Positions 3,142 through 29,986 of a stretch of 31,069 nt of DNA are shown in pieces; positions within the stretch are counted from its first letter, which is position 1, and each line of letters starts with the position of its first letter. The notes under the pieces were generated by a model. That model had not been told where the DNA came from. It made no database searches and was given only the letters and a program-made list of their open reading frames with translations. The stretch lies in the IMG/VR virus record IMGVR_UViG_3300037108_000013, positions 1 through 31,069 of that record. One strand, written 5' to 3'. This DNA comes from a virus. The translations under genes and the position numbers were made by a program.

Positions 3142-3146
3142 ATGAC

Positions 3147-4322: not shown

Positions 4323-4325
4323 AAC

Positions 4326-5480: not shown

Positions 5481-5485
5481 AACTT

Positions 5486-8874: not shown

Positions 8875-8882
8875 ATTTACTC

Positions 8883-8889
8883 ATAAATA
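8883..8889 (-). promoter_or_regulatory. TATTTAT box before fibre gene
   Basis: TATTTAT on the minus strand, 8 nt before the ATG at 8874, in the 45-nt gap between two fibre genes, so the fibre block may be transcribed from here as well. Confidence 0.4.
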
Positions 8890-8919
8890 TATAAAAACAA
8901 AATTATTAATTTGTTATAT

Positions 8920-13588: not shown

Positions 13589-14259
13589 ATTATTATTTTT
13601 TGACCATATACACATTTCGTTTCTAATACATTACCATCTTTATTTAATTGGGTTCTTACAAAACTATATAATGGTTTCCCTATTGACTCAAAATATTTAA
13701 CGATGTTATTTTGTCTTATTAAATCTTTTTTTTGTTGAGTAATATTCTTATGATATGGAGTATCATATTCATACCAAATATGCTTATTTTTATCATATCC
13801 ATCTGCAGCATATCCAATTTCCATAAATATTTTCGGTTGAAAATTATATCCCAACTCATTAACTTTATTAAAAAATTCTATAGCGCCTTTATCCATACAT
13901 TGAGGAATACCTAATTTTTCTAATCTTTTTAATTTAGATATTCTAATGTTTTTTCTATATTCCGCAGAACGAATTTTTCCTTTTGCTGATTGAGATAGTT
14001 TTATTTTTGTCTCATAAGATACACCCCTAGTTTTATTCCATGTATTTTTTCCTTTCATTGCGATGGACATTTTATTCTTAGTTTCATCTGATAATTTTTG
14101 TCCTTTCATCCAAGTATTTTTTCCTATATGGGAACAAGATTTACAAGGATGATTATATTTCAATGATTCATCTAATGATTTTTTATTCTTAAATGATTGC
14201 AATCCACCACATTTTGGGCATTGTTTTTGATATAATTCGTTGATGGCTATATTATTCAT
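13585..14259 (-). CDS. Zinc-ribbon/EDxHD homing endonuclease inserted after gp13-like gene
   Basis: 224 residues from the ATG at 14259. Cys14, Cys17, Cys39 and Cys42 form an N-terminal zinc ribbon. The middle has NUMOD3-like repeats (L-S-D-E-T-K-N-K-M-S, G-V-S-Y-E-T-K-I-K-L-S). The C-terminal core D-G-Y-D-K-N-K-H-I-W-Y-E-Y-D-T-P-Y-H and K-D-L-I-R-Q-N-N-I carries the Glu-Asp-His-Asp pattern of Vsr-like EDxHD homing nucleases. It is embedded so exactly that its start overlaps the gp13-like stop (ATGA) and its stop overlaps the next start (ATGA), giving translational coupling with no loss of neighbouring coding sequence. Close paralogues are at 23414 and, decayed, at 9669. Confidence 0.85.
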   Translation of the reverse strand: MNNIAINELYQKQCPKCGGLQSFKNKKSLDESLKYNHPCKSCSHIGKNTWMKGQKLSDETKNKMSIAMKGKNTWNKTRGVSYETKIKLSQSAKGKIRSAEYRKNIRISKLKRLEKLGIPQCMDKGAIEFFNKVNELGYNFQPKIFMEIGYAADGYDKNKHIWYEYDTPYHKNITQQKKDLIRQNNIVKYFESIGKPLYSFVRTQLNKDGNVLETKCVYGQKIII

Positions 14260-15497
14260 AAAATTATACAACACATGAATGCCCAAGCCCCGATATATAT
14301 AAAAAGAGGGACACGCTTTAATACTTCCTGCATTTGTTCAGCCTGCAATGAGTCGTTTTCCATTTGTTGTTTTTGGGTAGTCAATTGAAGTGATTCTCTC
14401 AATTGTGTAATCAGGTCTGCCTTCTCTGTCTGAGCTTCATTACGCAACTCAGCACCGTCCAGCGTAACGTCAGCACCCGGAATTGGGAGAGACTGATACT
14501 TTTGACGAATACAACCAAGGATTTCTTTGCAACAGGCCAAGAAATATTTACGAATCCATTGTCTTCCAACCGAATTGATTGTGTTGTAGGTGACAAGGTT
14601 ATAAGGAATATTTGAATAATCAGAAACGTAACTGCCCGTGTAATTTGGATTATTTGCCAATGAACCACTGTATCTATCATTACGAAGCATGTAATTGAAA
14701 TAGACCTTGAATGAATAGGTTGGGATAGGAAACAGTTTTAGTTTGTTGTTGACTAACTCAAATGAGTAGGCAGATTTACGAACCATGTCGTTGAACTGAA
14801 TGGCCTGACCACGAAGCAAATCTTCAAAGATTGGTGTCATCAAGAATTGAACGGCTGGTGAATAACCACCAAAACCAAGTTCATTTAAAACGTTGGAATA
14901 ACTCATACCCGTCATGGAGAATGGGTCATAGATACGGGCAAAAGCTGGTGGGAAGTCGTGAAATACCCTCATTACTTCAATTCTATTACAGTTCTCTACT
15001 TTATCGCCCCAGAGTTCTTGAATATCATATGTTTGTTGATTTGGACGTGCAATTATAAAGCCCTTCTTCCAATCAGCATAACCACCCACGCCAACTTCAC
15101 TTCCATATCCTTTTGCAAGTTCAATAACGTAAGGTAGTGGTGTTCCTGTTACAGCTTTACCTGTAAGATTTCCAATGGTATTTAGTTGTTGTCCTTGAAA
15201 TACTTGTAGATAGTTTTGAATATTAACCTGATTAACTTGCGCTGAATATTCATTTACCGCCTCTTCGTAGGCAGCATAGAAGTTGACATCGAGCATTTCA
15301 ATATCAACCACGGGGTATCCAAGACGATAAGCGGCCCAAATAGCCGCTGCCTGCGCATCTGACTGAAATAGGTAGTCATTATCGTAAAAACCAAAAGGGG
15401 TTCTGCCTTGGACAGACGACCCCGACCCTTGCCACCTGATACGATCTTGGTCCACCAAGGTTGTAGGATTTGTAATTGGGGATACAACGTCACTCAT
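14256..15497 (-). CDS. 13: gp13-like neck protein
   Basis: 413 residues. The C-terminal third matches T4 gp13 clearly by eye: R-Q-W-I-R-K-Y...C-K-E-I-L-G-C-I-R-Q-K-Y, then I-P-G-A-D-V-T-L-D-G-A-E-L-R-N-E-A-Q-T-E-K-A-D-L (T4 has N-R-W-V-K-D-Y, K-E-L-N-G-Q-I, P-G-G-V-T-I-D-G and E-A-R-L-E-K). The middle shows I-E-V-M-R-V-F-H-D and F-E-L-V-N-N-K-L-K-L-F-P-I-P. gp13 forms the neck on the portal to which the tail docks. About 100 residues longer than T4 gp13, mostly N-terminal. The last residues (I-G-A-W-A-F-M-C-C-I-I-L) are hydrophobic and may have been altered where the downstream endonuclease inserted. Start overlaps an upstream endonuclease stop (ATGA). Confidence 0.85.
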   Translation of the reverse strand: MSDVVSPITNPTTLVDQDRIRWQGSGSSVQGRTPFGFYDNDYLFQSDAQAAAIWAAYRLGYPVVDIEMLDVNFYAAYEEAVNEYSAQVNQVNIQNYLQVFQGQQLNTIGNLTGKAVTGTPLPYVIELAKGYGSEVGVGGYADWKKGFIIARPNQQTYDIQELWGDKVENCNRIEVMRVFHDFPPAFARIYDPFSMTGMSYSNVLNELGFGGYSPAVQFLMTPIFEDLLRGQAIQFNDMVRKSAYSFELVNNKLKLFPIPTYSFKVYFNYMLRNDRYSGSLANNPNYTGSYVSDYSNIPYNLVTYNTINSVGRQWIRKYFLACCKEILGCIRQKYQSLPIPGADVTLDGAELRNEAQTEKADLITQLRESLQLTTQKQQMENDSLQAEQMQEVLKRVPLFIYIGAWAFMCCIIL

Positions 15498-16673: not shown

Positions 16674-17234
16674 ATGATTAAGTTGTCCCAATTGGTAAAA
16701 GAGATTATGGAAGATTTATCGGCGACACCAGCCCCATCGGCTGTGCACCAGCAATCTAGTTCAGAAATTGTTGATAATTTTGCTAATTATATAAAATCTG
16801 TAGAAAATGCCCAAAAATTAGGATACGATGAAGACAAAAAATTATGGCTTCCACATAAATCGTATGAGGGTGGTATGCCTACTATAGGATATGGCCATAA
16901 AATAAAGGATAACCAAGAACTAAAATCTTATACAAATGGTGTTCCTGATAATGTCGTTTCTAAACTTTTATTGAATGATTTGATGATTGCCAACAAAAAA
17001 GTTCACGAGTATATCAAAAGAAAGTATAAAGTTCACTTAGTTTTAAGTAAAAAACAGAATGAAATTTTGGTGGATTATGCTTTCAATTTGGGCGGACTTG
17101 ATAAGTTTCCAAAATTTGTGGATGCTGTATTAAGAAACCGATGGGACATTGCAAGAAATGAGTATGTTAGGAAATCGGGTGGAAAAGAATTGACGGGCAG
17201 GAACAAAGCATTCTATAATAGATATTTACGATGA
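16674..17234 (+). CDS. Phage lysozyme (GH24-like) with capsid-targeting-like leader
   Basis: 186 residues. Leader MIKLSQLVKE (V8, E10) then I-M-E. Residues 38-80 show the muramidase core: Glu44 (S-V-E) as likely acid catalyst, then P-H-K-S-Y-E-G-G-M-P-T-I-G-Y-G-H-K at 60-76 with Thr70. This is the E...T-I-G-Y-G-H pattern of T4-type lysozymes, in the variant with S-x-E-G-G rather than a clear second Asp. Later N-E-I-L-V-D-Y-A-F-N-L-G-G and a C-terminal T-G-R-N-K-A-F-Y-N-R-Y complete the family. It cleaves peptidoglycan. A packaged lysozyme could act on the wall from inside the virion at DNA entry, not in lysis. No signal peptide or holin is nearby. TATTTAT box 5 nt upstream. Confidence 0.85.
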   Translation: MIKLSQLVKEIMEDLSATPAPSAVHQQSSSEIVDNFANYIKSVENAQKLGYDEDKKLWLPHKSYEGGMPTIGYGHKIKDNQELKSYTNGVPDNVVSKLLLNDLMIANKKVHEYIKRKYKVHLVLSKKQNEILVDYAFNLGGLDKFPKFVDAVLRNRWDIARNEYVRKSGGKELTGRNKAFYNRYLR

Positions 17235-17242
17235 GATTAAGT

Positions 17243-17278
17243 GAAAACTCCCACGACCCTAAAGGGATAGGGGTTTTC
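17243..17278. other. Nested inverted repeat (RNA hairpin)
   Basis: GAAAAC and GTTTTC (17243-17248, 17273-17278) pair, with CCC/GGG (17250-17252, 17270-17272) after one bulged base, around a small inner CCC-TAAA-GGG hairpin. No T-run follows, so a classical terminator is doubtful. It could still stabilise the 3' end of the lysozyme mRNA or be a transcription-pausing structure. Confidence 0.5.
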
Positions 17279-17302
17279 AGGCGACACGGACTATAAAATC
17301 CA

Positions 17303-17330
17303 TTGACAATCCATAAAAATATGATATAGT
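17303..17330 (+). promoter_or_regulatory. Consensus sigma70 promoter with leaderless geometry
   Basis: TTGACA at 17303-17308, 16-bp spacer, TATAGT at 17325-17330. The -10 box ends 6 nt before the ATG at 17337, so transcription should start at or next to the A of the start codon. No Shine-Dalgarno sequence lies between. This suggests early, host-polymerase expression of the nucleotidyltransferase gene from a leaderless mRNA. Confidence 0.75.
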
Positions 17331-17336
17331 ATCACA

Positions 17337-18032
17337 ATGACTACTATTCGTATTTTTGAGGTTGGCGGGTCAATTCGTAATGAATTGCTCGGCAAGTCTG
17401 CAAAGGACAGAGATTTTGCTGTGATTGCTCCTGACTATATTACCATGCGACAATACCTTTTAGACAAAGGAGCAACATTTTACCAAGAACGACCACAATA
17501 CGTAAGTATTAGAGCAAAACTATCTCCTCTAGGAGCGGTGGATTTTACTCTTGCTAGAAAAGAGTCGTTTTACACCGACGCAAGACATCCAGACAAAGTT
17601 ACTCCGGCTCTAACCATCGAAGAAGATTTGTCACGAAGAGATTTTCGAATGAATGCTATAGCCCGAGAAATTGGTACACCGGAGTTGATTGATCCGTTTG
17701 GTGGCCAATTAGATATTACTAATAAATGTATCCAATCGGTGGGTAATGCTATAGACAGGTTTAAAGAGGACCGACTTCGTATTTTCAGGTCTATTCGATT
17801 CGCATGTCAATTAGATTTTACTATCGGTCAGGAAGTTAGCAATGCAATTGATGAGTTTAAAAATATTGTAGATTTCGAATCAGTTACAAAAGAAATGATG
17901 CAAATTGAACTTTGCAAAACTTTTAGTTCTGATTGGAGACGTGCAATATCAATTTTACAATTTCACCCGTTTTTATGGGATGTAATAGAAAATAAAGGAA
18001 TATGGTTCAAGCCTACATTAGAAGATAGATGA
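17337..18032 (+). CDS. Class II CCA-adding enzyme / poly(A) polymerase-like nucleotidyltransferase, short
   Basis: 231 residues. All head-domain motifs are visible: G-G-S at 10-12 with R-N-E-L-L-G, metal-binding Asp24 and Asp26 (D-R-D-F), a third carboxylate Asp69 (A-V-D-F), R-R-D-F-R-M-N-A-I-A at 100-109, D-P-F-G-G at 119-123, and E-D-R-L-R-I-F-R-S-I-R-F-A at 144-156. This family adds CCA or A residues to RNA 3' ends. Bacterial enzymes are usually around 400 residues, so the body and tail domains are missing. The catalytic set is intact, so a small nucleotide-adding enzyme acting on tRNA or another RNA is plausible. Unlike its neighbours it has no cargo leader and has a host-type promoter, so it probably acts early in the cytoplasm. 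Confidence 0.88.
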   Translation: MTTIRIFEVGGSIRNELLGKSAKDRDFAVIAPDYITMRQYLLDKGATFYQERPQYVSIRAKLSPLGAVDFTLARKESFYTDARHPDKVTPALTIEEDLSRRDFRMNAIAREIGTPELIDPFGGQLDITNKCIQSVGNAIDRFKEDRLRIFRSIRFACQLDFTIGQEVSNAIDEFKNIVDFESVTKEMMQIELCKTFSSDWRRAISILQFHPFLWDVIENKGIWFKPTLEDR

Positions 18033-18079
18033 TCTCAATAAATCATATCATAACAAAGGCGATATACTATAAAAACGTA

Positions 18080-18086
18080 TATTTAT
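18080..18086 (+). promoter_or_regulatory. Start-proximal TATTTAT box
   Basis: TATTTAT, 6 nt before the metalloprotease ATG at 18093, with no Shine-Dalgarno sequence between. Confidence 0.5.
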
Positions 18087-18092
18087 TAGAAT

Positions 18093-19211
18093 ATGATAAA
18101 AATGGGTCAACTTATAAAAGAAGTATTCGAACTTCCTCCTGAAATTAATACCGAAGCAGAGAGGTTGACCCAACTTATTGCGTCTATGTTTGGTAGAAGT
18201 ATCACAGGTCAGGGATTTCTTCCTTTAACCAAAAAGTATTGGAATGACAATGCTCCATTTTTCAGCATAAAAAGGTCTAATAAAGGAACAAGTTGGGGAG
18301 GGGCTCAGTATGAAATAACATCAAAGAGCGGTCTTTATTCTCCGGTTTATTTATGCGTCACTCATAGTGATGACGACGCGACTTCTGGTTATATACACAA
18401 TGATGGTGAAGCAATATACATTAAAGCTGATGAAAAACATTTTACAGAAAATTTCAAAACATCGGTGGATGAATTGAGAGAAACTATAAAACATGAGTTA
18501 AGACACTACGTTCAAATAAAACAGAAAGTTGGATTTCCTAGAAGAAAACTAATGAGTAAAACATATAATATACATGGATTTACTGATGACCCAAGGTATA
18601 AGAGAACAAGACAACCACATCATCTTAGGGATATAGAATTCAAAACTAATCTACATAGTTATGCCTATTATATAAAGAGAAGTTTACAACAATCTCTTGA
18701 TAAAGGAAGATGGGCAGACCAGTTTAGAAAAATAATTACTGGTCAGTATGATGGTGATGATAGAATTAAGAATTTTTCTGACAATCTAATTGACATGGCC
18801 AAAAGAGACCCGACAAGGTGGAAACAATTTGTTCTTGAATTGTGGAAATTGGTATTTTCATCAAAAAAGAACGTTGATGAAATAAGGAGTCCATATGAGA
18901 AACCATCATTAACTGATAAAAATAGAGGATATATAGGCATCGTTTCACATAACAGAGTTTATGGATATGAAGAAGAAGTTCCAAATGTATATGAAGTTGA
19001 TCATTCTGAAATAGAATATGGTGCCAATGACGGGCGATTTAGGTATGTAACAGAGGGCGGCATAGTATATTGGAATCATTTTCCTCCAACCGATGAAGAA
19101 AGGGAAGTTGTCGAAGAATGGTTAGGAAAGAAAAATATTAAAGTTAACTCTCATAGATGCGCATATACACAACTTCCTCCATTACCACCAATTATCAAAC
19201 CACATGATTAA
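18093..19211 (+). CDS. Zinc metalloprotease-like protein (HELRH) with capsid-targeting-like leader
   Basis: 372 residues. Leader MIKMGQLIKE (I8, E10). The segment L-R-E-T-I-K-H-E-L-R-H-Y-V-Q holds an HExxH zinc site (His134, Glu135, His138), and H-H-L-R-D-I-E-F-K-T-N around Glu182 could give the third ligand, as in gluzincins. The N-terminal part (30-110) is beta-rich. The C-terminal 150 residues are of unknown type. A peptidase that acts on a host protein after injection, or on virion proteins, is the best guess. The substrate is not evident. A TATTTAT box lies 6 nt before the ATG. Its 3' end overlaps the next gene by 8 nt, so the two are translationally linked. Confidence 0.75.
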   Translation: MIKMGQLIKEVFELPPEINTEAERLTQLIASMFGRSITGQGFLPLTKKYWNDNAPFFSIKRSNKGTSWGGAQYEITSKSGLYSPVYLCVTHSDDDATSGYIHNDGEAIYIKADEKHFTENFKTSVDELRETIKHELRHYVQIKQKVGFPRRKLMSKTYNIHGFTDDPRYKRTRQPHHLRDIEFKTNLHSYAYYIKRSLQQSLDKGRWADQFRKIITGQYDGDDRIKNFSDNLIDMAKRDPTRWKQFVLELWKLVFSSKKNVDEIRSPYEKPSLTDKNRGYIGIVSHNRVYGYEEEVPNVYEVDHSEIEYGANDGRFRYVTEGGIVYWNHFPPTDEEREVVEEWLGKKNIKVNSHRCAYTQLPPLPPIIKPHD

Positions 19212-20265
19212 ACTCAAAAATATATTGAAAGAAATTGAAGAAGAAGATGATATGGAATTCATGTATCATCTTAAAGCTTTTGAACTTCGATTGAAAGACG
19301 AATTTCCTCAAATAAATAGTTTGAGTTTAGTATTACGTCCCGGTGGCGATATTCATATTGTTTCAATAGTTATCAGAAAATCGGAAAGACGAAAGGGAAT
19401 AGGAAGAGAAGTTATCAAGAGGATACTCAAATTTGCAGATGACTATGACAAACATGTAACTCTTCATATGGTTCCACAGCCAAGATATAAGGCTAAGTTG
19501 AACAAACTCTATAGAAACTTAGGATTTAGACCAAATAGAGGAAGGCACATGATACCTCAATATTCTAACCCATTTCACGGTATAATGATGCGAAAGCCGG
19601 GTGATAAAACAAGAATTGAAGAAGGTGTTGCACGTCTTGAAAAAGGTGATACAATACTAACAATCCCAACAGAGAAGGGTGATTATAGAGTTAGGGTATT
19701 CAAGTTCAAAAGAGGCGGTATTACCAAATACAACTTCGATATAAATTCTCCACCAGACCACTATGAAAACTATGGTGGTAAACCTATGGCCGTTGGTGGA
19801 ACGTGTCATTTAGGAACTAGTGGCACCAACATAGAACAAGTATATGCAGAATTGGCAGCAACTCTAAAGAAGTTAGGTCTTCCATACGTCCAATCTTTGA
19901 AACTGAAAATCATTGATACAGAAACTCCTGAAAAGCAAGCAATGTTAGATAAACTAGAAGATGTTATAGTCGCATTTCAACAAGAAATGGAAAAGCCAGA
20001 AAATCAGCCAAAACAGTTTGGAATGGGACCGCCTGATTACAGTCAGTGGATTAGTGGCGAAGACGTAAAATATGGAAGGCTACAAAAGACCATCGAAAAC
20101 TATGGCGACTTTTTCATAGTCATCAAATGGGCACAAAGTCCAAGAGACGTAATGAAAGCCAGTGATTTTTTGAAACACTATGAACATATCATAGCAGGTA
20201 AAGAAGCGAAGGGTGACTATGCTAGGGAAGTATTTATAAGAAGTGATCCATTCAAAGGAATATGA
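19204..20265 (+). CDS. GNAT acetyltransferase fused to unknown domain, capsid-targeting-like leader
   Basis: 353 residues. Leader MIKLKNILKE (L8, E10). Residues about 17-130 form a GNAT fold: I-V-S-I-V-I-R-K-S-E then the acetyl-CoA loop R-R-K-G-I-G at 62-67, and L-N-K-L-Y-R-N-L-G-F-R-P near 110, the usual motif B. Residues 140-353 (G-D-Y-R-V-R-V-F-K-F-K, G-G-T-C-H-L-G-T-S-G-T, W-A-Q-S-P-R-D-V) are a second domain I do not recognise. Acetylation of a host protein, toxin or RNA polymerase component on entry is a possible role. No own promoter box; start overlaps the protease gene by 8 nt. Confidence 0.78.
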   Translation: MIKLKNILKEIEEEDDMEFMYHLKAFELRLKDEFPQINSLSLVLRPGGDIHIVSIVIRKSERRKGIGREVIKRILKFADDYDKHVTLHMVPQPRYKAKLNKLYRNLGFRPNRGRHMIPQYSNPFHGIMMRKPGDKTRIEEGVARLEKGDTILTIPTEKGDYRVRVFKFKRGGITKYNFDINSPPDHYENYGGKPMAVGGTCHLGTSGTNIEQVYAELAATLKKLGLPYVQSLKLKIIDTETPEKQAMLDKLEDVIVAFQQEMEKPENQPKQFGMGPPDYSQWISGEDVKYGRLQKTIENYGDFFIVIKWAQSPRDVMKASDFLKHYEHIIAGKEAKGDYAREVFIRSDPFKGI

Positions 20266-20271
20266 TAAAAC

Positions 20272-21027
20272 TCAAACCTTACCATAAAAATTTATTTTTG
20301 GATCTTTTATTCTAATTATTTTACAATTTAAAAAGTTTTTTATTTCGTTTTCTCTTAAAACGTCTTTATCTTTTAGAGTTCCATCTTTATTAAAATGGCG
20401 CCTTTCATCCCACTCATAAACAATATTATTTTCTTTATCATAACCATCCAGCCAATAACTTAATTCTTTTATAAAATATTCACCACCATTTAAAGCGTGT
20501 TGTATATTGCATTCATTTTTCTTATTTAATTGATCAAAATATTTACAAGCATTTACATTATAAGATGGATGAAAATTAGTATGAGTTTTTAATAATCTCT
20601 CTACCATTTGTTTTCTAAACAATCTTTTTAATCTATTACTTGTTTTTCTTCCTTTATTACCATATCCACATCCCGCTTTAATACATGATATACTTCGTTT
20701 TTTATTTGATTGAAAACTCATTACACGATTAGACATCATAATTTTTAGTTCTTTTGATTTTTCTTTCCCATAAATTTCTTCTAAAGTTTTACCCTTTCTA
20801 AAGTCAGCATTTTTTGGTCGTTGTCCCTTTTTAAACCACGATTTTCTCATTTTTTGCAAAGTCTTTTTTGGAACTTTACCGTTTTTGTGAATGGTTGATG
20901 GATGGCCAATTTTAGAACACGACCTACATTTTCTATTTTTACTAATAGATTCGGTCAAACTCCAACGGTCTTTATAAAACACATACTTATTACACGATGG
21001 ACAGTTTTTATAAAAATTAGTCTTCAT
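20272..21027 (-). CDS. Zinc-ribbon/EDxHD homing endonuclease
   Basis: 251 residues, opposite in strand to the cargo genes beside it and ending 6 nt from the GNAT gene stop. Cys9, Cys12, Cys34 and Cys37 form the zinc ribbon. A basic middle region (K-K-T-L-Q-K-M-R-K-S-W-F-K-K-G-Q) follows. The core W-L-D-G-Y-D-K-E-N-N-I-V-Y-E-W-D-E-R-R-H-F (Glu205, Asp207, His211) with K-D-V-L-R-E-N-E-I has the EDxHD nuclease pattern. AAGGAG 8 nt before the ATG is a good ribosome site and lies inside the small ORF 21017-21157. It is more diverged than the pair at 13585 and 23414. Confidence 0.83.
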   Translation of the reverse strand: MKTNFYKNCPSCNKYVFYKDRWSLTESISKNRKCRSCSKIGHPSTIHKNGKVPKKTLQKMRKSWFKKGQRPKNADFRKGKTLEEIYGKEKSKELKIMMSNRVMSFQSNKKRSISCIKAGCGYGNKGRKTSNRLKRLFRKQMVERLLKTHTNFHPSYNVNACKYFDQLNKKNECNIQHALNGGEYFIKELSYWLDGYDKENNIVYEWDERRHFNKDGTLKDKDVLRENEIKNFLNCKIIRIKDPKINFYGKV

Positions 21028-21157
21028 TAGATAACTCCTTTAATTTTTTCTTTTTGTTGTAATACCGCTTAGCATTTTCGGCTAATCTTTTTAGTCTCTC
21101 TTCCAACGTTTGATTGGAACGGTGTCTTCCTCTTTTTTTCTTTTCTTCCTTTATCAT
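21017..21157 (-). CDS. Small basic protein overlapping endonuclease start
   Basis: 46 residues, mostly Lys, Arg and Glu: E-E-K-K-K-R-G-R-H-R (AT-hook-like R-G-R), T-L-E-E-R-L-K-R-L-A-E-N-A-K-R-Y-Y-N-K-K-K-K. Composition and the Y-Y-N/R-N pattern recall the two small ORFs before the DUF723 nucleases, although sequence identity is low. Again the nuclease ATG overlaps it in the +1 frame. TATTTAT ends 6 nt before its ATG. Probably a leader or DNA-binding partner gene of the mobile unit. Confidence 0.6.
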   Translation of the reverse strand: MIKEEKKKRGRHRSNQTLEERLKRLAENAKRYYNKKKKLKELSNED

Positions 21158-21163
21158 ATGATA

Positions 21164-21170
21164 ATAAATA
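21164..21170 (-). promoter_or_regulatory. Start-proximal TATTTAT box
   Basis: TATTTAT on the minus strand, 6 nt before the small ORF ATG at 21157; divergent from the box at 21199. Confidence 0.5.
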
Positions 21171-21198
21171 TAAGTCAGATTAGTGAAAAAGGCAAATA

Positions 21199-21205
21199 TA
21201 TTTAT
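21199..21205 (+). promoter_or_regulatory. Start-proximal TATTTAT box
   Basis: TATTTAT, 6 nt before the ATG at 21212; it decides this start for the 2H phosphoesterase-family gene over the upstream in-frame ATG. Confidence 0.5.
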
Positions 21206-21211
21206 TGTTAT

Positions 21212-21961
21212 ATGATTAAATTGGGTGAAATGTTAACCGAAAATAGGGATTTATCTGCCCGGCGTGGATGTTTGATGTGTATGGTATCAAAAAAGGATTC
21301 TGACCTCATAGTAGAATTTGGAAAACGATTAATAAAAGATGAAGATTTGTATGTAGAAAATAATGAATATGGGCGAGAAAGTTCCCCATGTCATATAACA
21401 CTACGGTACGGATTTTTAAAGGATTTAAATGAGTTAGAAATCAGACAACTTCTTCAAAACCAAAAACCATTTATGGTAGAAATTATAGGACTGAATAAAT
21501 TTGAAAATCCACCAAAATACTCAGTTTCCGTATTTAAAGTTAATAGTCCTGTGTTAAAACAATTAAATGAAATGTCAGGTATATATTTGAATGAGAATGA
21601 TTACCCTGAATATTTGCCTCATTTAACGTTATGTTATACTAAACCGAACGCAAATATTCCTGTTAAGGAAGGACTAAAATTAAAAACTCTTATTACAGAA
21701 ATATGCTATAGCCCGATTCAGGGTGGTAAATCTTATTTCAATTTAGACGAAGGAAATATCCATCATGATATTGATAGTCAAATTGCTCGTCTTGAACAAG
21801 AATGGGAACGGTTGGATGCTATGGGTGGAAATACCGGTGGCAGACAACAGGATATAGAACAGGAACTTATACACCTTAGATACGAAAAGGAAGGTCAACC
21901 TTTGGGCCCAAATGACCCTAAATCAAAAGAACTTTGGGATAAATTGAAGCAATCAATATAA
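21212..21961 (+). CDS. 2H phosphoesterase-family protein with capsid-targeting-like leader
   Basis: 249 residues from the ATG at 21212, chosen because TATTTAT ends 6 nt upstream and the protein then starts with the leader MIKLGEMLTE (L8, E10); an in-frame ATG at 21110 lacks both. Two H-x-T-h motifs, His61-Ile-Thr-Leu and His137-Leu-Thr-Leu, about 75 residues apart, define the 2H phosphoesterase superfamily (LigT, CPDase, tRNA-ligase CPD domains, phage Acb1). Such enzymes open 2',3'-cyclic phosphates or cleave cyclic oligonucleotides. The C-terminal 60 residues are a charged helix (I-A-R-L-E-Q-E-W-E-R-L). Its stop overlaps the next start (TAATG). Confidence 0.78.
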   Translation: MIKLGEMLTENRDLSARRGCLMCMVSKKDSDLIVEFGKRLIKDEDLYVENNEYGRESSPCHITLRYGFLKDLNELEIRQLLQNQKPFMVEIIGLNKFENPPKYSVSVFKVNSPVLKQLNEMSGIYLNENDYPEYLPHLTLCYTKPNANIPVKEGLKLKTLITEICYSPIQGGKSYFNLDEGNIHHDIDSQIARLEQEWERLDAMGGNTGGRQQDIEQELIHLRYEKEGQPLGPNDPKSKELWDKLKQSI

Positions 21962-22863
21962 TGATTAAACTAAAATCACTATTAGAAGAAAATGTGTATG
22001 AATATTTCTATCATGCAACGACTCCAAATGCGTTGCCTAACATAGTAAATCGCGGTCTTATGCCTTCGGAAAATACAAATTGGGGTGGAGACTTGGGAAA
22101 ATTTAGTGAAGGAAAAATATTTGTTACCAAAAAATTCCGAACGGCGAATTATTATGGGAATATTATATGGAGAAACAACTCAAATAGATATCGTCCCATA
22201 TTAAGATTTAAATATAATAAACTTCGCTTTATACCCGATAAACGATCGACCGATGATTTTTATGTAGAATTTACACTCAAGGCGCGTTTTGAGATGTTCG
22301 TGTATAATGAAAATACTAAAATAGAAACAGAACATAATGGAGATATGTGGTTTAATGAACATACTGGACATTGGAGGCCGTTGACGAAAGAACTATCAGA
22401 GAGTATTTCAACAGGAGAATGGGATGGGGAGGAACCAGAAAATTATGAAGATTTAAAAGAAATAGAATATCCTCTTGCTAAGAAGGGCGAACTTCAATCT
22501 TATGAAGGTATGGCTGACTGGAAAGGTAAAATCGTTTGGATGTCCCCTGACAAATTCTTGAGCTTGGTTCTCCCTCTAAATTATCCAGAGGTTGATAAAT
22601 TGAAGAAAGTAACAAAACGATTAAGAAGAAATTTACCCATTGATTTTTTGGTACTAAAAGTCAACGCAGAGGAAAATAGAGTAGTGGGTCATGAGGGAAG
22701 ACATAGAGCATTAGTATCTAAAAAATTGGGAATTGAAAAGGTTCCTGTGTTAGTATATTTTGCTGAATATAACGACGCATATCCAAGAGTCCCTAAATGG
22801 ACACAACAACAGCACGACTACGCCGACAAGGCAGAATTCGAGCGTGAACGCCCACAGGAGTAA
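21961..22863 (+). CDS. ADP-ribosyltransferase-like plus ParB-like fusion, capsid-targeting-like leader
   Basis: 300 residues. Leader MIKLKSLLEE (L8, E10). Residues 15-110 look like an ART/PARP-type fold: Y-F-Y-H-A-T-T (15-21), I-V-N-R-G-L-M-P-S, G-K-I-F-V-T-K at 51-57 and A-N-Y-Y-G, then R-P-I-L-R-F-K. Residues about 195-270 match a ParB/sulfiredoxin-like domain: M-S-P-D-K-F-L-S-L, I-D-F-L-V-L-K-V, and the signature V-V-G-H-E-G-R-H-R-A (241-250) with L-G-I-E-K-V-P-V. T4 Alt is a packaged ADP-ribosyltransferase, so an injected ART is precedented. The fusion recalls phage polyvalent proteins. Catalytic competence cannot be judged by eye. Confidence 0.7.
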   Translation: MIKLKSLLEENVYEYFYHATTPNALPNIVNRGLMPSENTNWGGDLGKFSEGKIFVTKKFRTANYYGNIIWRNNSNRYRPILRFKYNKLRFIPDKRSTDDFYVEFTLKARFEMFVYNENTKIETEHNGDMWFNEHTGHWRPLTKELSESISTGEWDGEEPENYEDLKEIEYPLAKKGELQSYEGMADWKGKIVWMSPDKFLSLVLPLNYPEVDKLKKVTKRLRRNLPIDFLVLKVNAEENRVVGHEGRHRALVSKKLGIEKVPVLVYFAEYNDAYPRVPKWTQQQHDYADKAEFERERPQE

Positions 22864-22870
22864 TATTTAT
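22864..22870 (+). promoter_or_regulatory. Start-proximal TATTTAT box
   Basis: TATTTAT, 5 nt before the ATG at 22876, squeezed into the 12-nt gap after the ART-ParB-like gene. Confidence 0.5.
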
Positions 22871-22875
22871 AACCA

Positions 22876-23430
22876 ATGAAACTTGCAACATTAATCAAAA
22901 TCAATGAGTGGATTAGTCACGCCCCAGCCGTGAATGCTAATCCTGACTCTAAATTGCGTCCTGTTCCGGGCGGATGGAATGATAACTCACCTAACTGGAA
23001 TGATAGTGTAGAAAATTGGGATGGAATTATTGAGGGTGGTAAAGGACAATATTTTTGTTACGTTGAGAGTAACGATTGGGAGAAGAAGCGTTCAGGAGCC
23101 ATCGTTTATATTACAGAAGATGATAAACCTCACAAGATTTGGATGAAGATAAAGACTCACGGGCTACGCAAAAAGAACGATACCAATGAAAGCTATAAAG
23201 AACGTGTAAGAAAGCACACCAATAAGGTTGCTAAGTCTTGGATGAGTGAAGCAAAAAAATTATACAAAAACGTTGAGATTAACGAAGCAGGTAATCCAGT
23301 TCCTATTACATGGAAACAGGCTTTCCGCGAGGCAATGCAAGATGATAAGGTAAAAGAGTGGATGGCAGAGTGTGGCGAACAGGAAATAGCCCCTCTGGCC
23401 GACCCTGTGAATTTTACAAACACTGTATAG
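22876..23430 (+). CDS. Hypothetical protein with capsid-targeting-like leader
   Basis: 184 residues, unrecognised. It begins MKLATLIKINEWISHA, a slightly shifted form of the leader with I-N-E at 9-11. The body is Trp- and Lys-rich (G-G-W-N-D-N-S-P-N-W-N-D-S-V-E-N-W-D), with a beta region (Q-Y-F-C-Y-V-E, G-A-I-V-Y-I-T-E-D-D) then helical basic stretches (S-Y-K-E-R-V-R-K-H-T-N-K-V-A-K-S-W). No catalytic motif seen. TATTTAT ends 5 nt before the ATG, although the upstream gene stops only 13 nt before the ATG. The 3' end overlaps the convergent endonuclease gene by 17 nt. Confidence 0.75.
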   Translation: MKLATLIKINEWISHAPAVNANPDSKLRPVPGGWNDNSPNWNDSVENWDGIIEGGKGQYFCYVESNDWEKKRSGAIVYITEDDKPHKIWMKIKTHGLRKKNDTNESYKERVRKHTNKVAKSWMSEAKKLYKNVEINEAGNPVPITWKQAFREAMQDDKVKEWMAECGEQEIAPLADPVNFTNTV

Positions 23431-24139
23431 TTTCTATAAGATTACCTGTTTTATTTACCTTTATTCTTGTAAATTGATTTAGTGGCTTACCTATAAATTC
23501 AAAGTATTTTATGATATTATTTTGACGTATTAGGTCCTTTTTCTTTTGATGTGGTTGCCTGTGATATGGAGTATCATATTCAATCCAAATGTGTTTTTCT
23601 TTATCATAACCATCCGCCCTATAACCCCACTTCCAAAAAGTTTTTGGTTGAAAGTTACTATTTGTTTCTTTATTATATTTGGCAAACCATTCCTTAGACC
23701 CTTTATCTTCACAATCAGGAATACCCAAATTTTCCATCCTTTTTAATATTTGTATTCTTCTTTTTCTTTTCCATTCTTCAGTGTGATGCTTTCCATAAAA
23801 CGCATTTTTGACTCCTGTATTTATTTTAGATAATTTCAATTTGTGTTCCTCAGATAATATTTTACCGCTGTGAAATTTTGACATTTTTTCTTTTGTGTTT
23901 TCTGTGTGATATTTTCCTATTCTTGGACTCCATCCCTGTTTATATTTTTCCTTGGTGCCATCAGAACAACTTTTTTTGAATTCTTGGGTCATGGATTTTC
24001 CTTTATTCCAACAGGGGCGTCCCTTCATATTACAAGAATAACATTTTGTATTTTTTTCTATAGAATATTTTAATGCGTACTTATTACAATAATTTAGTTC
24101 AACCCCACACTCAGGGCAATTTCGTTTAAATTCTTTCAT
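23414..24139 (-). CDS. Zinc-ribbon/EDxHD homing endonuclease
   Basis: 241 residues from the ATG at 24139 (TATTTAT ends 4 nt upstream; an earlier in-frame ATG at 24163 encodes only a hydrophobic extension). Cys8, Cys11, Cys33 and Cys36 form the zinc ribbon. Several NUMOD3-like repeats follow (L-S-E-E-H-K-L-K-L-S, H-T-E-E-W-K-R-K-R-R). The core A-D-G-Y-D-K-E-K-H-I-W-I-E-Y-D-T-P-Y-H and K-D-L-I-R-Q-N-N-I-I-K-Y-F-E is almost the same as in the 13585 copy, so the two are recent relatives. It lies antisense between two cargo genes and overlaps the end of the upstream one. Confidence 0.85.
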   Translation of the reverse strand: MKEFKRNCPECGVELNYCNKYALKYSIEKNTKCYSCNMKGRPCWNKGKSMTQEFKKSCSDGTKEKYKQGWSPRIGKYHTENTKEKMSKFHSGKILSEEHKLKLSKINTGVKNAFYGKHHTEEWKRKRRIQILKRMENLGIPDCEDKGSKEWFAKYNKETNSNFQPKTFWKWGYRADGYDKEKHIWIEYDTPYHRQPHQKKKDLIRQNNIIKYFEFIGKPLNQFTRIKVNKTGNLIETIQCL

Positions 24140-24143
24140 AAGA

Positions 24144-24150
24144 ATAAATA
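24144..24150 (-). promoter_or_regulatory. Start-proximal TATTTAT box
   Basis: TATTTAT on the minus strand, 4 nt before the endonuclease ATG at 24139; it decides this start over 24163. Confidence 0.45.
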
Positions 24151-24217
24151 TAATGAAAAACATAAAAAAGCGTACATATCAGTAAATTTCACACCGAAAA
24201 TATAAATATTTTACTTC

Positions 24218-24224
24218 TATTTAT
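24218..24224 (+). promoter_or_regulatory. Start-proximal TATTTAT box
   Basis: TATTTAT, 4 nt before the ATG at 24229. A T4-late-like TATAAATA is also present at about 24201-24208. Confidence 0.5.
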
Positions 24225-24228
24225 AGAT

Positions 24229-24654
24229 ATGATTAAATTAAGACCATTAATAGGAGAAGTTATGATAAACAGAACAATCAGTTACTCGGCGGTGGTGTTG
24301 GACGATAGAGACAAGAAAAAATTATTAGAGATTTTTGCTGGTCAAATACCTGATAACTGGAGTAAATATGCGGAACACATGACTATAAAAATGGGTGAAC
24401 TTCCATTAGAAAAGAAACAAGATATTGGCAGTAGAGTTCAACTAACCGCATTTGAGTTTGGTAAGTCTGAGAAGGCCATAGCCGTAAAGGTAAGGGGATA
24501 TTGGACGACCAACGAAACCGCACACATCACATTAGCTGTGAATACCGACATTGGTGGTAAACCAGTAGATTCTAATAAGATTGTCCATTGGAAACCTCTC
24601 CCAAATACAATTCCTCTTACAGGCGTTGTTACCGAAATACCTTTTAGAAGGTAA
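24229..24654 (+). CDS. Small 2H phosphoesterase-like protein (Acb1-like in size) with capsid-targeting-like leader
   Basis: 141 residues. Leader MIKLRPLIGE (I8, E10). His50-Met-Thr-Ile and His99-Ile-Thr-Leu form paired H-x-T motifs in a single compact domain, with I-S-Y-S-A-V-V-L-D as the first strand and G-G-K-P-V-D-S-N after the second motif. Size and motif layout are close to T4 Acb1 (57B), a 2H enzyme that destroys CBASS signalling nucleotides, and to tRNA-ligase CPD domains. An enzyme that enters with the DNA and removes cyclic nucleotides or repairs RNA ends is the inferred role. TATTTAT ends 4 nt before the ATG. Confidence 0.75.
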   Translation: MIKLRPLIGEVMINRTISYSAVVLDDRDKKKLLEIFAGQIPDNWSKYAEHMTIKMGELPLEKKQDIGSRVQLTAFEFGKSEKAIAVKVRGYWTTNETAHITLAVNTDIGGKPVDSNKIVHWKPLPNTIPLTGVVTEIPFRR

Positions 24655-24655
24655 T

Positions 24656-24973
24656 TTATTTCAAAAATTCATTTATTCCATGTAAAATAGTATGCGCATG
24701 CTTACTATATTCTGGATTTGATTTAAAATACTCTTTTACGATTTGGGAAAAATCCTCTTTTTTTGATTGAAAATTTTCTTTTTTTATACCAAATTTCTCA
24801 CATATCAAAGATATTTCTTTTTTAGGAATGTAAACATTAACACCTTTTTCTTTGGTAATATTTAATAAATCAGACTCTTTTCCTTCTACACAATCCAAAA
24901 TTGGATTTTGTTTTTTTGGTATATCACTCATATTTTTTTCTTCCCATATAAAAAATTGGTTTTCTTTCATCAT
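24656..24973 (-). CDS. Small hypothetical protein
   Basis: 105 residues from the first ATG; an alternative ATG at 24931 (91 residues, MSDIPKKQNP...) is preceded by GGGAAG about 8 nt upstream and may be the true start. Lys/Glu/Ile-rich and apparently helical: V-Y-I-P-K-K-E-I-S-L-I-C-E-K-F-G-I then I-V-K-E-Y-F-K-S and a C-terminal I-L-H-G-I-N-E-F-L-K. It has no cargo leader and no recognised motif. It ends back to back with the small phosphoesterase gene (one base between stops) and starts 18 nt after the transglutaminase-like gene. Confidence 0.65.
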   Translation of the reverse strand: MMKENQFFIWEEKNMSDIPKKQNPILDCVEGKESDLLNITKEKGVNVYIPKKEISLICEKFGIKKENFQSKKEDFSQIVKEYFKSNPEYSKHAHTILHGINEFLK

Positions 24974-24990
24974 AACAGTAAGTATTTGTT

Positions 24991-26610
24991 TTAATCGTCA
25001 TAATAGGTTATGTTAAACGGTCCTTGTCTAGCAATATCACTTACTGCTTCAAATAGGTTACTTTTTTGCGTATGTCCTATCTTTGTTTGTAAGTATCCAC
25101 TCAATGCAGACAAGTGTTTGCAAAGACCTTCACCAATATCATATGCAGGTTTTGGTGATCTATTTATTGCTTTATTCAAACTCTTAGGCCCAATGTCACC
25201 AGCTCCTTGTTTGAAATTGTTGTGGGCAAATTTGTATCTATAATCAGGACAACTACAATCTACTTTGCATTCGAGTTCTGCGGCTTGGTCTTTTGATTGT
25301 ACTTCACCTTTTATAAATGTAATATGTCCTTGTAGTGGTTCGCCCGGGTCACCTGTAGTCCTATCTGACCTATATCTAAAATTCCACTGTTCCATCCCTT
25401 CTTCGACACTAACAGGAATGCTACGGACTCTTACGTTTTTTGACCTGTCTATACGATTTGTATTGGTATCTGGACTTCTTGGTGTATCTGCGGTAAGTTT
25501 AAGAAGTTGGTCATAAGTCATATTTTCCTGTAATCCCCTTTGAAGAAGTTTCTTGGCATCTGAGAGTTTGTATTTTCCTCTTGGCAACGTCATCAACTCT
25601 TTCGTGCTAGGCATTTTAAATCCCCACTTGGCCAAATCTTCTGGGTTACTTGAAAAAATATTTTGACCATCAACAATTCCATCTATCTGAATGAAATCGG
25701 CGGCTGGAAAGGTGGGGTCTTTGTTAACAGTCACAACTATAGTGCCATCGTTGAGTCGGGAAAGATACTGTTTGACTTGATATTCTTTAGCTTTTCTTTG
25801 CGCATCATTTGTAGTTTCTCTAACTTCGTTATCTACAGGCGGTTCCAATCGGATTTCTTTTACTATTTCCTGGAATATTTTTAAATATTCTTGTGGTGTA
25901 TATGATTTATTTATTTTGTTAGGAACATATTCTACTTCGCCTTTACTAGGGTTAAATCCCCATTGTTTCCATTGATTTTTTGTTGGGTCAAACTTTCTAC
26001 CGTCATCAAACTCAATCCACGTATGGGTTGACCAATTATCTTTATCATCTATATCATAGAAATCAGGAAAATACACCCACCCTTCAACAATCTTGAAATT
26101 CTTAATGCCTTTTTGTAGAAAATATTGTGTAGCTAAAGCAGCCGCAGACATACATGTTCCCAAATTGTGGCGGTTGAAATCCTTTGGAAACATTGACTCC
26201 TGTAGTTCTTCTTCTCTACCTGTGTTTGTATCAGAAATGTATTTACAATCTTCTTTTATTGCTAGATTTTTGATTGCGGCTAGTTGTCTGTGGTTTATAG
26301 GGTTGAATTTTGAATGCCCGTAGTGAAGAACATTACTTTCGGGATAATCAACTTTTACGATGTGGATGAAACCATATCTATACATCATACTATAAACATC
26401 CGAACTGTCTGGGTCTATATCGTGCCCCATTCTTTTTAGATAGTTTATTGCCCACTCTCTGTGTCTTTCAAATGGTACTTCGTGTGCCTCTAAATCCGGG
26501 TCCAACCACCAATGTTTTGAGAGTTTACTTATTGAAAGCGGTAATTCACCCTCTTTAATAACGCTAAAGATTACTTCCTTTATTATTTGTTTCAACTCAA
26601 TCCGCTTCAT
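24991..26610 (-). CDS. Transglutaminase-like plus SWIM zinc-finger protein with leader
   Basis: 539 residues from the ATG at 26610, which has TATTTAT 6 nt upstream; the earlier in-frame ATG at 26658 lies inside the preceding gene. Leader MKRIELKQIIKE (I10, E12), then V-I-K-E-G at 17-21. Cys153 (G-T-C-M-S-A-A), His196 (T-H-T-W-I-E-F) and Asp208 (K-F-D-P-T) are spaced like a transglutaminase/cysteine-peptidase triad. Near the C-terminus C-S-C at 452-454 and C-K-H at 497-499 make a SWIM-type C-x-C...C-x-H zinc finger, which usually binds nucleic acid or protein. The middle is unrecognised. Possible role: protein cross-linking, deamidation or proteolysis after entry. Confidence 0.72.
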   Translation of the reverse strand: MKRIELKQIIKEVIFSVIKEGELPLSISKLSKHWWLDPDLEAHEVPFERHREWAINYLKRMGHDIDPDSSDVYSMMYRYGFIHIVKVDYPESNVLHYGHSKFNPINHRQLAAIKNLAIKEDCKYISDTNTGREEELQESMFPKDFNRHNLGTCMSAAALATQYFLQKGIKNFKIVEGWVYFPDFYDIDDKDNWSTHTWIEFDDGRKFDPTKNQWKQWGFNPSKGEVEYVPNKINKSYTPQEYLKIFQEIVKEIRLEPPVDNEVRETTNDAQRKAKEYQVKQYLSRLNDGTIVVTVNKDPTFPAADFIQIDGIVDGQNIFSSNPEDLAKWGFKMPSTKELMTLPRGKYKLSDAKKLLQRGLQENMTYDQLLKLTADTPRSPDTNTNRIDRSKNVRVRSIPVSVEEGMEQWNFRYRSDRTTGDPGEPLQGHITFIKGEVQSKDQAAELECKVDCSCPDYRYKFAHNNFKQGAGDIGPKSLNKAINRSPKPAYDIGEGLCKHLSALSGYLQTKIGHTQKSNLFEAVSDIARQGPFNITYYDD

Positions 26611-26616
26611 ATGGAT

Positions 26617-26623
26617 ATAAATA
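26617..26623 (-). promoter_or_regulatory. Start-proximal TATTTAT box
   Basis: TATTTAT on the minus strand, 6 nt before the ATG at 26610, in the context GATATTTATNTCCATATG shared with 27239. Confidence 0.5.
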
Positions 26624-26635
26624 TCTAAAGCATTG

Positions 26636-27232
26636 TTAATATTTTTCTCGTTTCTCATTATTTGGGGGAAATATTTCTGTTTTGATAACTTTTATAACAT
26701 CAAACATTTTTACTATAAAAACATCTATAGTTTTTGTTACGATTTCCGGATTTGATACCAAAAGTTGATTTATATTTTCAATATCTAATTGGACGGTTAG
26801 TGTATCTCCTGTATAAGAATTTACCGAAACGTGACCTGGAAGATTTTGACTTACGCGTAGAAAATTACCATGTTGAGACATTCCGTGTGTTGCTTTAATA
26901 CCTATTTTATTTAATGCATATATTATATCACCAACGAAATCATTAATTTGAAAATTAAATGGTTCCATCGTATATTTTTTTTCACTATTTACCATACTAT
27001 TTGGAAAGTAAAAACTATTTTGATCGATCATTTCTGCCGAGTTTGTTATCGTATCACTATGAATAACATCACACATTATTCCTAATGATTTTTGATATAT
27101 ATCGAATTGAAATTCTCCCGTTGACCCCTCAATTTTATAATGAGATTTTAATTCTTCCACCCTCCGCATATAGTATTGAACTAATTCTTTAATAGAAACA
27201 GATTCTATAATGAGATTTTTAAGTTTAATCAT
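26636..27232 (-). CDS. Hypothetical protein with capsid-targeting-like leader
   Basis: 198 residues, unrecognised. Leader MIKLKNLIIE (I8, E10) followed by S-V-S-I-K-E-L-V-Q. The body alternates helix and strand (Y-Y-M-R-R-V-E-E-L-K, G-E-F-Q-F-D-I-Y-Q-K-S-L-G-I-M, I-N-D-F-V-G-D-I-I-Y-A-L-N-K-I-G-I) and ends in a C-terminal helix (F-I-V-K-M-F-D-V-I-K-V-I-K). H-G-M-S-Q-H-G-N contains two His but no known catalytic pattern. TATTTAT ends 6 nt before the ATG. It is the first gene of the minus-strand half of the cargo block, and the next gene has its own box. Confidence 0.75.
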   Translation of the reverse strand: MIKLKNLIIESVSIKELVQYYMRRVEELKSHYKIEGSTGEFQFDIYQKSLGIMCDVIHSDTITNSAEMIDQNSFYFPNSMVNSEKKYTMEPFNFQINDFVGDIIYALNKIGIKATHGMSQHGNFLRVSQNLPGHVSVNSYTGDTLTVQLDIENINQLLVSNPEIVTKTIDVFIVKMFDVIKVIKTEIFPPNNEKREKY

Positions 27233-28029: not shown

Positions 28030-28033
28030 ATTC

Positions 28034-28040
28034 ATAAATA
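28034..28040 (-). promoter_or_regulatory. Start-proximal TATTTAT box
   Basis: TATTTAT on the minus strand, 4 nt before the GIY-YIG gene ATG at 28029. Confidence 0.45.
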
Positions 28041-28135: not shown

Positions 28136-29986
28136 TTATACTGTGTCCAAATCTGCGACAAGTATCTTGCCATAAAACTCAGGGCGAACTATTTTCTTCG
28201 CGTAACGGGTCATTACACCACGTCTCGGCGTGAAGTTCACAGGGTCATAGACCAACGGGGTCTGAACTAGTGGAATGTATGGGGCATATACTGCACCAGT
28301 TTCCAAGAAGTTATTGCCACGGAAGCCCATGAGGATGACGTTATCCGTCATATATGGGTTCTTGTAAACTTGGAATCGACTTGCGAAGCTACCAACTCTA
28401 CTAACACCCATTGCGAACTTGGCTTGATCGCCATCTGTATTCACCACGAAGCCCGGAATAGATTCCAAGATCGTTGCTACTGCTGGTGATAGAACCATGA
28501 AGTTGGCACCACCACGAAGCGTTAGCTGGTGAATCTTGTTTGATACCTTTTGAATCTTGTTACCAAGAGTCTGATACCATGTAGCCTTGGTGTAGTAACC
28601 ACCGGTGCCTGCGACCTGCTGGTCAACTGCCATCCAAGCGCCAGAACCATTAGGAACGATTTCGCGGTTTAGGCGAGCGCTCCAACGTTCAGTCGTGTAG
28701 GCTGGAACAGTTGTAATCAACATATCAAGGATTTCCAAATCAATTTCCATAGAAACGTATTCGGAAAGCAAAGCAGTAAGTTCTGCTTCTGCGTCAATGC
28801 TGTGATAAGCATTCAAGTCTTGAGCCAATTCTGGGGTCCAGACGGCTTTCAACTTACGAGTCTTGGCGACAATAGGTTCGCTCTTCAACTCAAGGTTCAC
28901 TTCTGGGATACCAATATCGTTGTTAAGACCTAGTGTTCCACCGTTAGTATCAGCTACACCGTATTTACCTGTTGGATAGGTAAAACCACTACTATTAATA
29001 TTATTGTTAGTATTCCAGTTATTATCTTCGAAGTCACCACGATTGGCTGGTGTGGTTTGAACTGTGTAGAGAATAGTACCACCAACGACACCGAGGTTGG
29101 TAGAAATAGACGCTGATTGAGCTGATGAAGCTGAAATCACGAATGAAACTTCTCCCTGCTGAGCGCCACCCGGGCTCATACCAAAACCGCCTACGAACTT
29201 CGTAAATGGTGGGAAATAGAGAGGAGCTTGTGATATTACACTTGAACCTGTCGTTAAACCCGCTGGAACGAAAGCACGGACTGCCAACGGATCAAATGGG
29301 TTACCCTGATTTACAGTGTTTTGATAGAAGTTTGTTGAGGTAATTGTTAGAAGATTACCAGCGACCCATGAACCAGAAATGCTGTTTACAACAGTCTGAA
29401 CAGAACCGGATTGGGCAGTTTGGGTATAATAGTTGGTCAACCAATTAATATCTTCCAATGTAGCCGTAGCAACCGTGAAGGATGCTGTTACATACTTCTG
29501 ATTGATGGTATAGGCAAATCTACCTGCGCCATACAAACCACCCACTGGGAGGTCCGTTGAGCCAAGTTTCTTACCTGTGCCACCGAATAGTGATTGATAA
29601 TATGAACCAGACTGGTCAGCAGGGGCACCAAGATGGTTGGAACCATACTTGAAGTCCAAATAGAACACGAGTCCTGATGGGAGGTTCATTGGCTGAACGG
29701 AAACGAATTCCTTCGCTGCGAATTCAGCAAATACACGTCTGACCAATGGAAGGGCTACGCCGGCCCACTGTTCAGAGTTTGCGGAAGTACCAGTAGCAGT
29801 TGCTTCTTCAATCAGTTGTTTAGCCTGATTTTCCAAAAGAACTGACATATTGGACTTTTCAATATCACTCTTGATACCTTCAAGCAGACCAGTCTTATCC
29901 CACTTGGTCACAAGACCACGGGTTTCCTGCATCAAACGAGCTTGAGGATTTAGAGTGTTTGTCAATAATGATTTAATGTTATCCAT
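28136..29986 (-). CDS. 23: gp23-type major capsid protein precursor
   Basis: 616 residues. The N-terminal region is the helical delta-like arm (about 61 residues) ending L-L-E-N-Q-A-K-Q-L-I-E-E-A-T. An I-E-E/A site at 59-61 matches the L/I-x-E cleavage rule of gp21, and T4 gp23 is cut after residue 65. Then A-L-P-L-V-R-R-V-F-A-E-F-A-A-K-E-F-V-S-V-Q-P-M-N-L-P-S-G-L-V-F resembles the gp23 V-Q-P-M-N-x-P-x-G core, and later W-T-P-E-L-A-Q-D-L and E-Y-V-S-M-E-I-D-L-E-I-L are also typical. An insertion of about 100 residues (170-330) is Ser/Thr/Gly-rich. It builds the hexameric shell. A TATATAAA sequence 15 nt before the ATG may be a late promoter; terminator downstream. Confidence 0.95.
   Translation of the reverse strand: MDNIKSLLTNTLNPQARLMQETRGLVTKWDKTGLLEGIKSDIEKSNMSVLLENQAKQLIEEATATGTSANSEQWAGVALPLVRRVFAEFAAKEFVSVQPMNLPSGLVFYLDFKYGSNHLGAPADQSGSYYQSLFGGTGKKLGSTDLPVGGLYGAGRFAYTINQKYVTASFTVATATLEDINWLTNYYTQTAQSGSVQTVVNSISGSWVAGNLLTITSTNFYQNTVNQGNPFDPLAVRAFVPAGLTTGSSVISQAPLYFPPFTKFVGGFGMSPGGAQQGEVSFVISASSAQSASISTNLGVVGGTILYTVQTTPANRGDFEDNNWNTNNNINSSGFTYPTGKYGVADTNGGTLGLNNDIGIPEVNLELKSEPIVAKTRKLKAVWTPELAQDLNAYHSIDAEAELTALLSEYVSMEIDLEILDMLITTVPAYTTERWSARLNREIVPNGSGAWMAVDQQVAGTGGYYTKATWYQTLGNKIQKVSNKIHQLTLRGGANFMVLSPAVATILESIPGFVVNTDGDQAKFAMGVSRVGSFASRFQVYKNPYMTDNVILMGFRGNNFLETGAVYAPYIPLVQTPLVYDPVNFTPRRGVMTRYAKKIVRPEFYGKILVADLDTV

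Follow-up and report, generated by a model that had tools for sequence, protein, structure and literature searches.

A ten-residue leader with features of a capsid-targeting propeptide on mostly unrelated proteins of an uncultured T4-like phage

Leader-bearing genes between the major capsid and neck genes

The window analysed here, a virus fragment of 31,069 bp, comes from a large, uncultured T4-like phage of bacteria. The most similar records, all from IMG/VR, are contigs whose capsid proteins share 60–80% identity with it, the largest being jumbo contigs of 251–369 kb, and the nearest isolates, Microcystis phage Mel-JY01 and Flavobacterium phage immuto, are about 50% identical. On the short contig L014 (IMGVR_UViG_3300037129_000035), three window proteins from 24229–27232 are matched by near-identical proteins of equal length, and this contig appears to represent the same virus or a nearly identical one. 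The right part of the window holds the gene for the major capsid protein gp23 (28136..29986, minus strand; Pfam Gp23, 4e-72) and a gp22-like scaffold gene (30028..31069, minus) that is cut by the window end. Neck and tail-connector genes lie on the left (14256–15497, 12240–12713 and 9962–11128), the first neck gene (14256..15497, minus) being without a Pfam match of its own. At 1963–9672 (minus) are tail-fibre-like proteins with many SASWASQSLSASYAP-type repeats, neighbouring genes sharing a series of related C-terminal domains. The gap between gp23 and the first neck gene, 128–183 bp in several relatives, is 12.6 kb in the window because an island of putative cargo genes lies between them.

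Seven proteins begin with MIK[LM]xx[LIM][LIV]xE, with Glu at residue 10, each at the place given in the earlier note. On the plus strand, the leader MIKLSQLVKE (residues 1–10) precedes a T4-lysozyme-family domain (16674..17234; Phage_lysozyme, 8.5e-07), MIKMGQLIKE a putative zinc metallopeptidase with a HELRH motif and a weak match to the DUF6782 metallopeptidases (18093..19211; 0.03), MIKLKNILKE a GNAT acetyltransferase domain and a C-terminal region (19204..20265; Acetyltransf_1, 2.2e-05), MIKLGEMLTE a 2H phosphoesterase of the 2'-5' RNA ligase/Acb1-like type (21212..21961; 2_5_RNA_ligase2, 5.8e-07), MIKLKSLLEE a YFYHAT... protein (21961..22863) whose likeness to ADP-ribosyltransferases is by motif only, as judged by eye, and MIKLRPLIGE a second 2H-type phosphodiesterase domain (24229..24654; tRNA_lig_CPD, 4.7e-05). 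The seventh, MIKLKNLIIE, stands on a protein of no recognised function (26636..27232, minus). The gene at 21212 starts at an internal ATG of a TTG-started ORF (21110–21961), and its match to Acb1 (3.7e-05) is below the family cut-off. Two proposed shifted leaders proved equally real. MKLATLIKINE, with Glu at residue 11 (I-N-E), precedes a conserved domain of no recognised function (22876..23430, plus), and MKRIELKQIIKE, with Glu at residue 12 (I-K-E), begins a protein with a transglutaminase-like Cys/His/Asp pattern discerned by eye (24991..26610, minus; also labelled 24994), for which a Pfam search returned no match; its start is the internal ATG at 26610, not 26658, of ORF 24991–26658. An additional, weaker candidate of the E12 kind, absent from the earlier note, is MKKYQAKALIKE, the start of a 154-aa protein encoded between neck genes (13124..13588, minus; internal ATG of ORF 13124–13615).

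The leadered proteins of the window are 141–539 aa long, mostly with one recognised domain each. The peptidase (18093), transglutaminase-like (24994) and ADP-ribosyltransferase-like (21961) assignments are putative, being based on motifs picked out by eye; searches of PDB sequences with 21961 and 18093 gave nothing significant, and PADLOC assigned no cargo protein to a defence family. The AlphaFold model of 21961 (mean pLDDT 40) is too poor to interpret, and an ADP-ribosyltransferase fold is therefore not claimed. The model of 22876 has an N-terminal helix at residues 3–14, a low-confidence linker to residue 48 and a folded domain from about residue 50, an arrangement consistent with a handle that is attached flexibly and can be removed; its comparison with PDB structures gave no significant match. 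Cargo homologues that have no clear leader also exist, one on another contig (L141:17744–18559) and one in the island itself, a truncated tRNA nucleotidyltransferase-like (CCA-type) gene (17337–18032, plus) whose homologues in three relatives (G001, G013 and L011) have leader-like starts.

Homing-endonuclease-like genes of the GIY-YIG, NUMOD3 and treble-clef types are found in and around the island, at 11342–12274 (plus) and, on the minus strand, at 13585–14286, 15494–16459, 20272–21027 (by likeness only), 23414–24163 and 27277–28035; one of them runs into the end of the first neck gene (14256). They may take part in moving and shuffling the cargo genes. A TATTTAT box, which in reverse complement matches TATAAATA, the late box of T4, lies at most 40 nt upstream of the genes at 16674, 18093, 21212, 22876, 24229, 26610 (minus) and 27232 (minus). 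It is in strong excess upstream of genes clade-wide (observed against expected, 69 versus 13 in G013, 37 versus 3 in G008 and 30 versus 4 in G011), and is possibly the late promoter of the clade.

The leader as a positional rule and its association with head genes

When the N-termini of the window ORFs were scored with a position matrix, 7 of 34 passed, against 0.0 per shuffle of the N-terminal residues. In the 1577 ORFs of four related large (jumbo-phage) contigs of 251–365 kb, the pattern [LI][LIV]xE, counted by position over the first 30 residues, peaks with Glu at residue 10 (35 observed, 3.9 expected) and at residue 12 (16 observed, 3.7 expected) and nowhere else. ORFs picked by residues 7, 8 and 10 only have I at residue 2 in 85% of cases (background 11%), K at 3 in 73% (15%), L at 4 in 83% (12%) and K at 5 in 63% (12%), and conservation drops to near background straight after E10. 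The E12 peak has a counterpart in a second leader class, M-K-x-x-x-L-K-x-[LI]-[IV]-[KR]-E (for example MKKSQLKWLIKEIVKE), found in G001, G011, W02, G025 and other relatives on other protein families, also within gp21–gp23 operons. Microcystis phage Mel-JY01 has four leader matches, at 60.3–62.8 kb. A signal peptide was set aside, the leader being charged and too short.

A shared start of this kind could also come from an effect on translation initiation or at the DNA level, or from recent duplication of one 5' end, an origin to which the A-rich context of the start codons and the frequent upstream occurrence of the putative late promoter lend some colour. Among 63 distinct leaders, however, the conserved residues are encoded by freely varying synonymous codons and are preceded by dissimilar DNA, which argues for selection on the leader peptide; residues 7, 8 and 10 are moreover too far in and too specific for such an effect, and the same codons in scrambled order are rare and mostly not at ORF starts. 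We regard an origin of any of these kinds as scarcely credible. The scrambled pattern served as the control in a scan of IMG/VR viral contigs with a DNA pattern encoding the leader only, which recovered at least 120 stretches, compared with 25 for the control in the whole collection. Among the matches listed, plausible ORF starts were seen for 82 of 92 leader matches and 5 of 25 control matches.

The contigs recovered in this way are linked to the prohead protease. A gp21-type S77 protease is encoded, among the matches listed, by 26 of 44 leader contigs and by none of the 25 contigs with a control match (p=2e-7, or p=3e-5 when the comparison is restricted to contigs of 17 kb or more); the 18 leader contigs without gp21 include records of 126 and 207 kb. 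Leadered ORFs lie between gp21 and gp23 in 15 of the 18 relatives' contigs that, among the matches listed, hold both genes. In the clade of the window, by contrast, it is the space separating gp23 from the first neck gene that holds the cargo, and leader density in these gaps is 13-fold that elsewhere (37 in 142 kb versus 22 in 1126 kb). The window itself holds no gp21-type protease gene, an absence that appears to be due to the contig stopping inside gp22, the scaffold gene; the protease is present in 21 of 23 relatives, and the virus's own gp21 is expected beyond the right end.

The leader also matches the predicted maturation site of the capsid protein. An alignment of 68 gp23 homologues shows L-[ILV]-x-E|[AST] at residues 58–62, E61 being present in 99%, and the L-[ILV]-x-E of this site equals leader residues 7–10; the predicted protease site of the window gp23 is Q-L-I-E-E61|A. 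We infer that gp23 of this clade is cleaved after E61. The scaffold protein of relatives begins ...LLKEAIADAK. The amphipathic pattern of the leader would also suit a helix that addresses proteins elsewhere, to a membrane, the phage nucleus or the tail, and is left uncut by the head protease, but a helix of that kind would leave unexplained the strict end of conservation at E10, the identity with the capsid cleavage motif, the association with the S77 protease and the location in head operons, and we consider it very improbable.

Modular cargo and a proposed route into the host

That one leader is common to unrelated mature domains, as the earlier note maintained, is borne out by domain matches, by clustering of the protein bodies and by fusions, the proteins being mostly unrelated. 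When class-A-leadered proteins were clustered on their bodies with BLAST, 44 groups emerged, an upper estimate since the relaxed pattern lets in some chance matches, and about 19 proteins with the strict motif are singletons. The cargo set differs among relatives, whose leadered proteins include domains of ART-PolyVal (4.2e-09), tRNA nucleotidyltransferase with an HD domain, GNAT and 2H types; tblastn searches of cultured phages with three of these proteins gave few or no matches. In G001, a homologue of the GNAT protein 19204 is fused with the metallopeptidase-type domain of 18093 behind one leader, and G011 has two such fusions, one of GNAT with lysozyme and one joining 21961 to the end of 24994; in L011 and L015, 22876 is fused with 24229, the leader being the shifted MKLKT... 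form. Each fused chain has a single, N-terminal leader, while the same domains, when encoded by separate genes in the window, have one each.

The interpretation of the leader as a capsid-targeting sequence withstood every computational test set for it, namely the fixed position with conservation ending at E10, the matching gp23 site, the co-occurrence with the S77 protease relative to the scrambled control, the placement in head operons and the single leader per fused polypeptide. A leader of this kind might nonetheless bring to the prohead core proteins that help in head assembly or remain in the capsid, with nothing enzymatic being injected. Several leadered genes of relatives do lie inside the gp21–gp22–gp23 operon, which is the place of core proteins in T4, among them a recurring family (...HFLEIISTYG..., for example in G040 and G042). 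Lysozyme, GNAT and 2H phosphoesterase domains, however, are not scaffold-like, a cargo set that varies among relatives is unlike core structural genes, and T4 ejects its internal proteins (IPs) and Alt, which have leaders of this sort (PMC9026906). A purely capsid-resident role appears unlikely on these grounds.

It is highly probable, in our view, that the leader acts as a T4-type capsid-targeting propeptide, which loads a modular enzyme cargo, is cut by a gp21-type protease and accompanies cargo destined for injection. As an amphipathic helix with hydrophobic residues at 4 and 7, and also at 2, the leader would bind the prohead core and pull each protein inside, where the gp21-type S77 protease would cut at L/I-x-E after Glu10 (Glu11 or Glu12 in the shifted forms), as in gp23, and free the mature enzyme within the head. 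Packaging in virions and cleavage of the cargo are very probable by analogy with T4, and by the same analogy, with the T4 IPs and Alt, the enzymes would probably pass into the host along with the DNA and be active during the first minutes of infection. Their host targets are guesses; the activities would include lysis of the cell wall, acetylation, proteolysis, the cleavage of RNA ends or of nucleotide signals and perhaps ADP-ribosylation, and the 2H enzymes may serve in the removal of nucleotide signals.

We also find it reasonably likely that, in a widespread and largely uncultured T4-like clade, a near-universal ten-residue loading code together with its E12 form constitutes an open platform, in which the product of any gene that gains the tag is packaged in the virion, unrelated enzymes and proteins of no known function are delivered by the dozen, and the injected proteome can be predicted from raw metagenomes by means of the tag alone. 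If the leader does mark such cargo, the proteins that uncultured phages bring into cells could be listed by sequence only, and among them would be many enzymes with expected effects on host defence and takeover, along with families without known function. The T4 capsid-targeting principle, known for a few small inhibitors, would then cover a large arsenal of enzymes, and a ready way of tagging foreign proteins for the heads of large phages would be at hand.

Comparison with T4 and other known systems

Published work on T4 places the cut after L/I-x-E, and for IPIII the first ten residues suffice, targeting requiring positions 4 and 7 and processing positions 8 and 10 (PMC9026906). The conserved leader positions 4, 7, 8 and 10 are those to which IPIII genetics assigned targeting (4, 7) and processing (8, 10). 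The statement that T4 internal proteins start MKTYxEFIAE is correct for IPIII (MKTYQEFIAE), the only one among the T4 N-termini compared, and does not apply to IPI (MKTFKEFTSTTTPVSTITE). The layout of the leader, with hydrophobic residues at 4, 7 and 8 and Glu at 10, recurs in IPIII and also in the vertex protein gp24, whose MAKINELLRE is the closest T4 N-terminus. T4, KVP40, P-SSM2, Syn9 and HTVC008M (three cyano/pelagiphages among them) all lack the exact MIKLxxLLxE form, so the likeness to T4 is one of pattern, not of shared sequence, and descent from a T4 leader cannot be shown from the sequences. We found no description of a MIKLxxLLxE leader in the open-access literature, nor any virion proteomics of a phage that bears it; a paper on Baltic Flavobacterium phages contains neither immuto nor mass-spectrometry data.

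Other systems share part of these features. The polyvalent proteins encoded by phages and plasmids (Iyer et al. 2017, PMC5512222) have an overlapping repertoire of ART, GNAT, metallopeptidase and 2H domains and are likewise presumed to be delivered with DNA, but they are large multi-domain chains, whereas the proteins described here are mostly separate, of one or two domains, with a shared leader predicted to be removable. The ejection proteins of phiKZ and SPN3US share processing by a prohead protease C-terminal to Glu and the mass of internal proteins; they differ in protease specificity, which is A-x-E in SPN3US, and in propeptides that are mostly longer than 100 residues (PMC5694885). The gp24 propeptide of T4 has a nearly identical layout, and relatives even have MAKLKKLLEES and MTKLKDLLKES, but gp24 is a capsid shell protein, unlike the cargo considered here.

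The nearest parallel is provided by IPI–IPIII and Alt of T4 with gp21. Common to both are a short N-terminal propeptide, hydrophobic residues at 4, 7 and 8 with Glu10 (in IPIII), the L/I-x-E rule, unrelated mature domains and a gp21-type protease, here encoded in relatives. The differences lie in the leader itself (MKTYQEFIAE in T4, MIKLKxLLxE here), in the many leadered proteins that are recognisable enzymes, in the position of their genes next to gp23 or within its operon, and in number. T4 has three IPs and Alt, and the T-even phages are reported to have at least ten internal proteins in all (PMC12373910); here at least nine leadered proteins (nine or ten) are encoded by a single 31-kb fragment, and dozens in the clade. 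Judged by its sequence features, all of which agree where they could be tested, save a gp21 in the same genome and descent from a T4 leader, the system appears to be a much enlarged variant of T4 capsid targeting.
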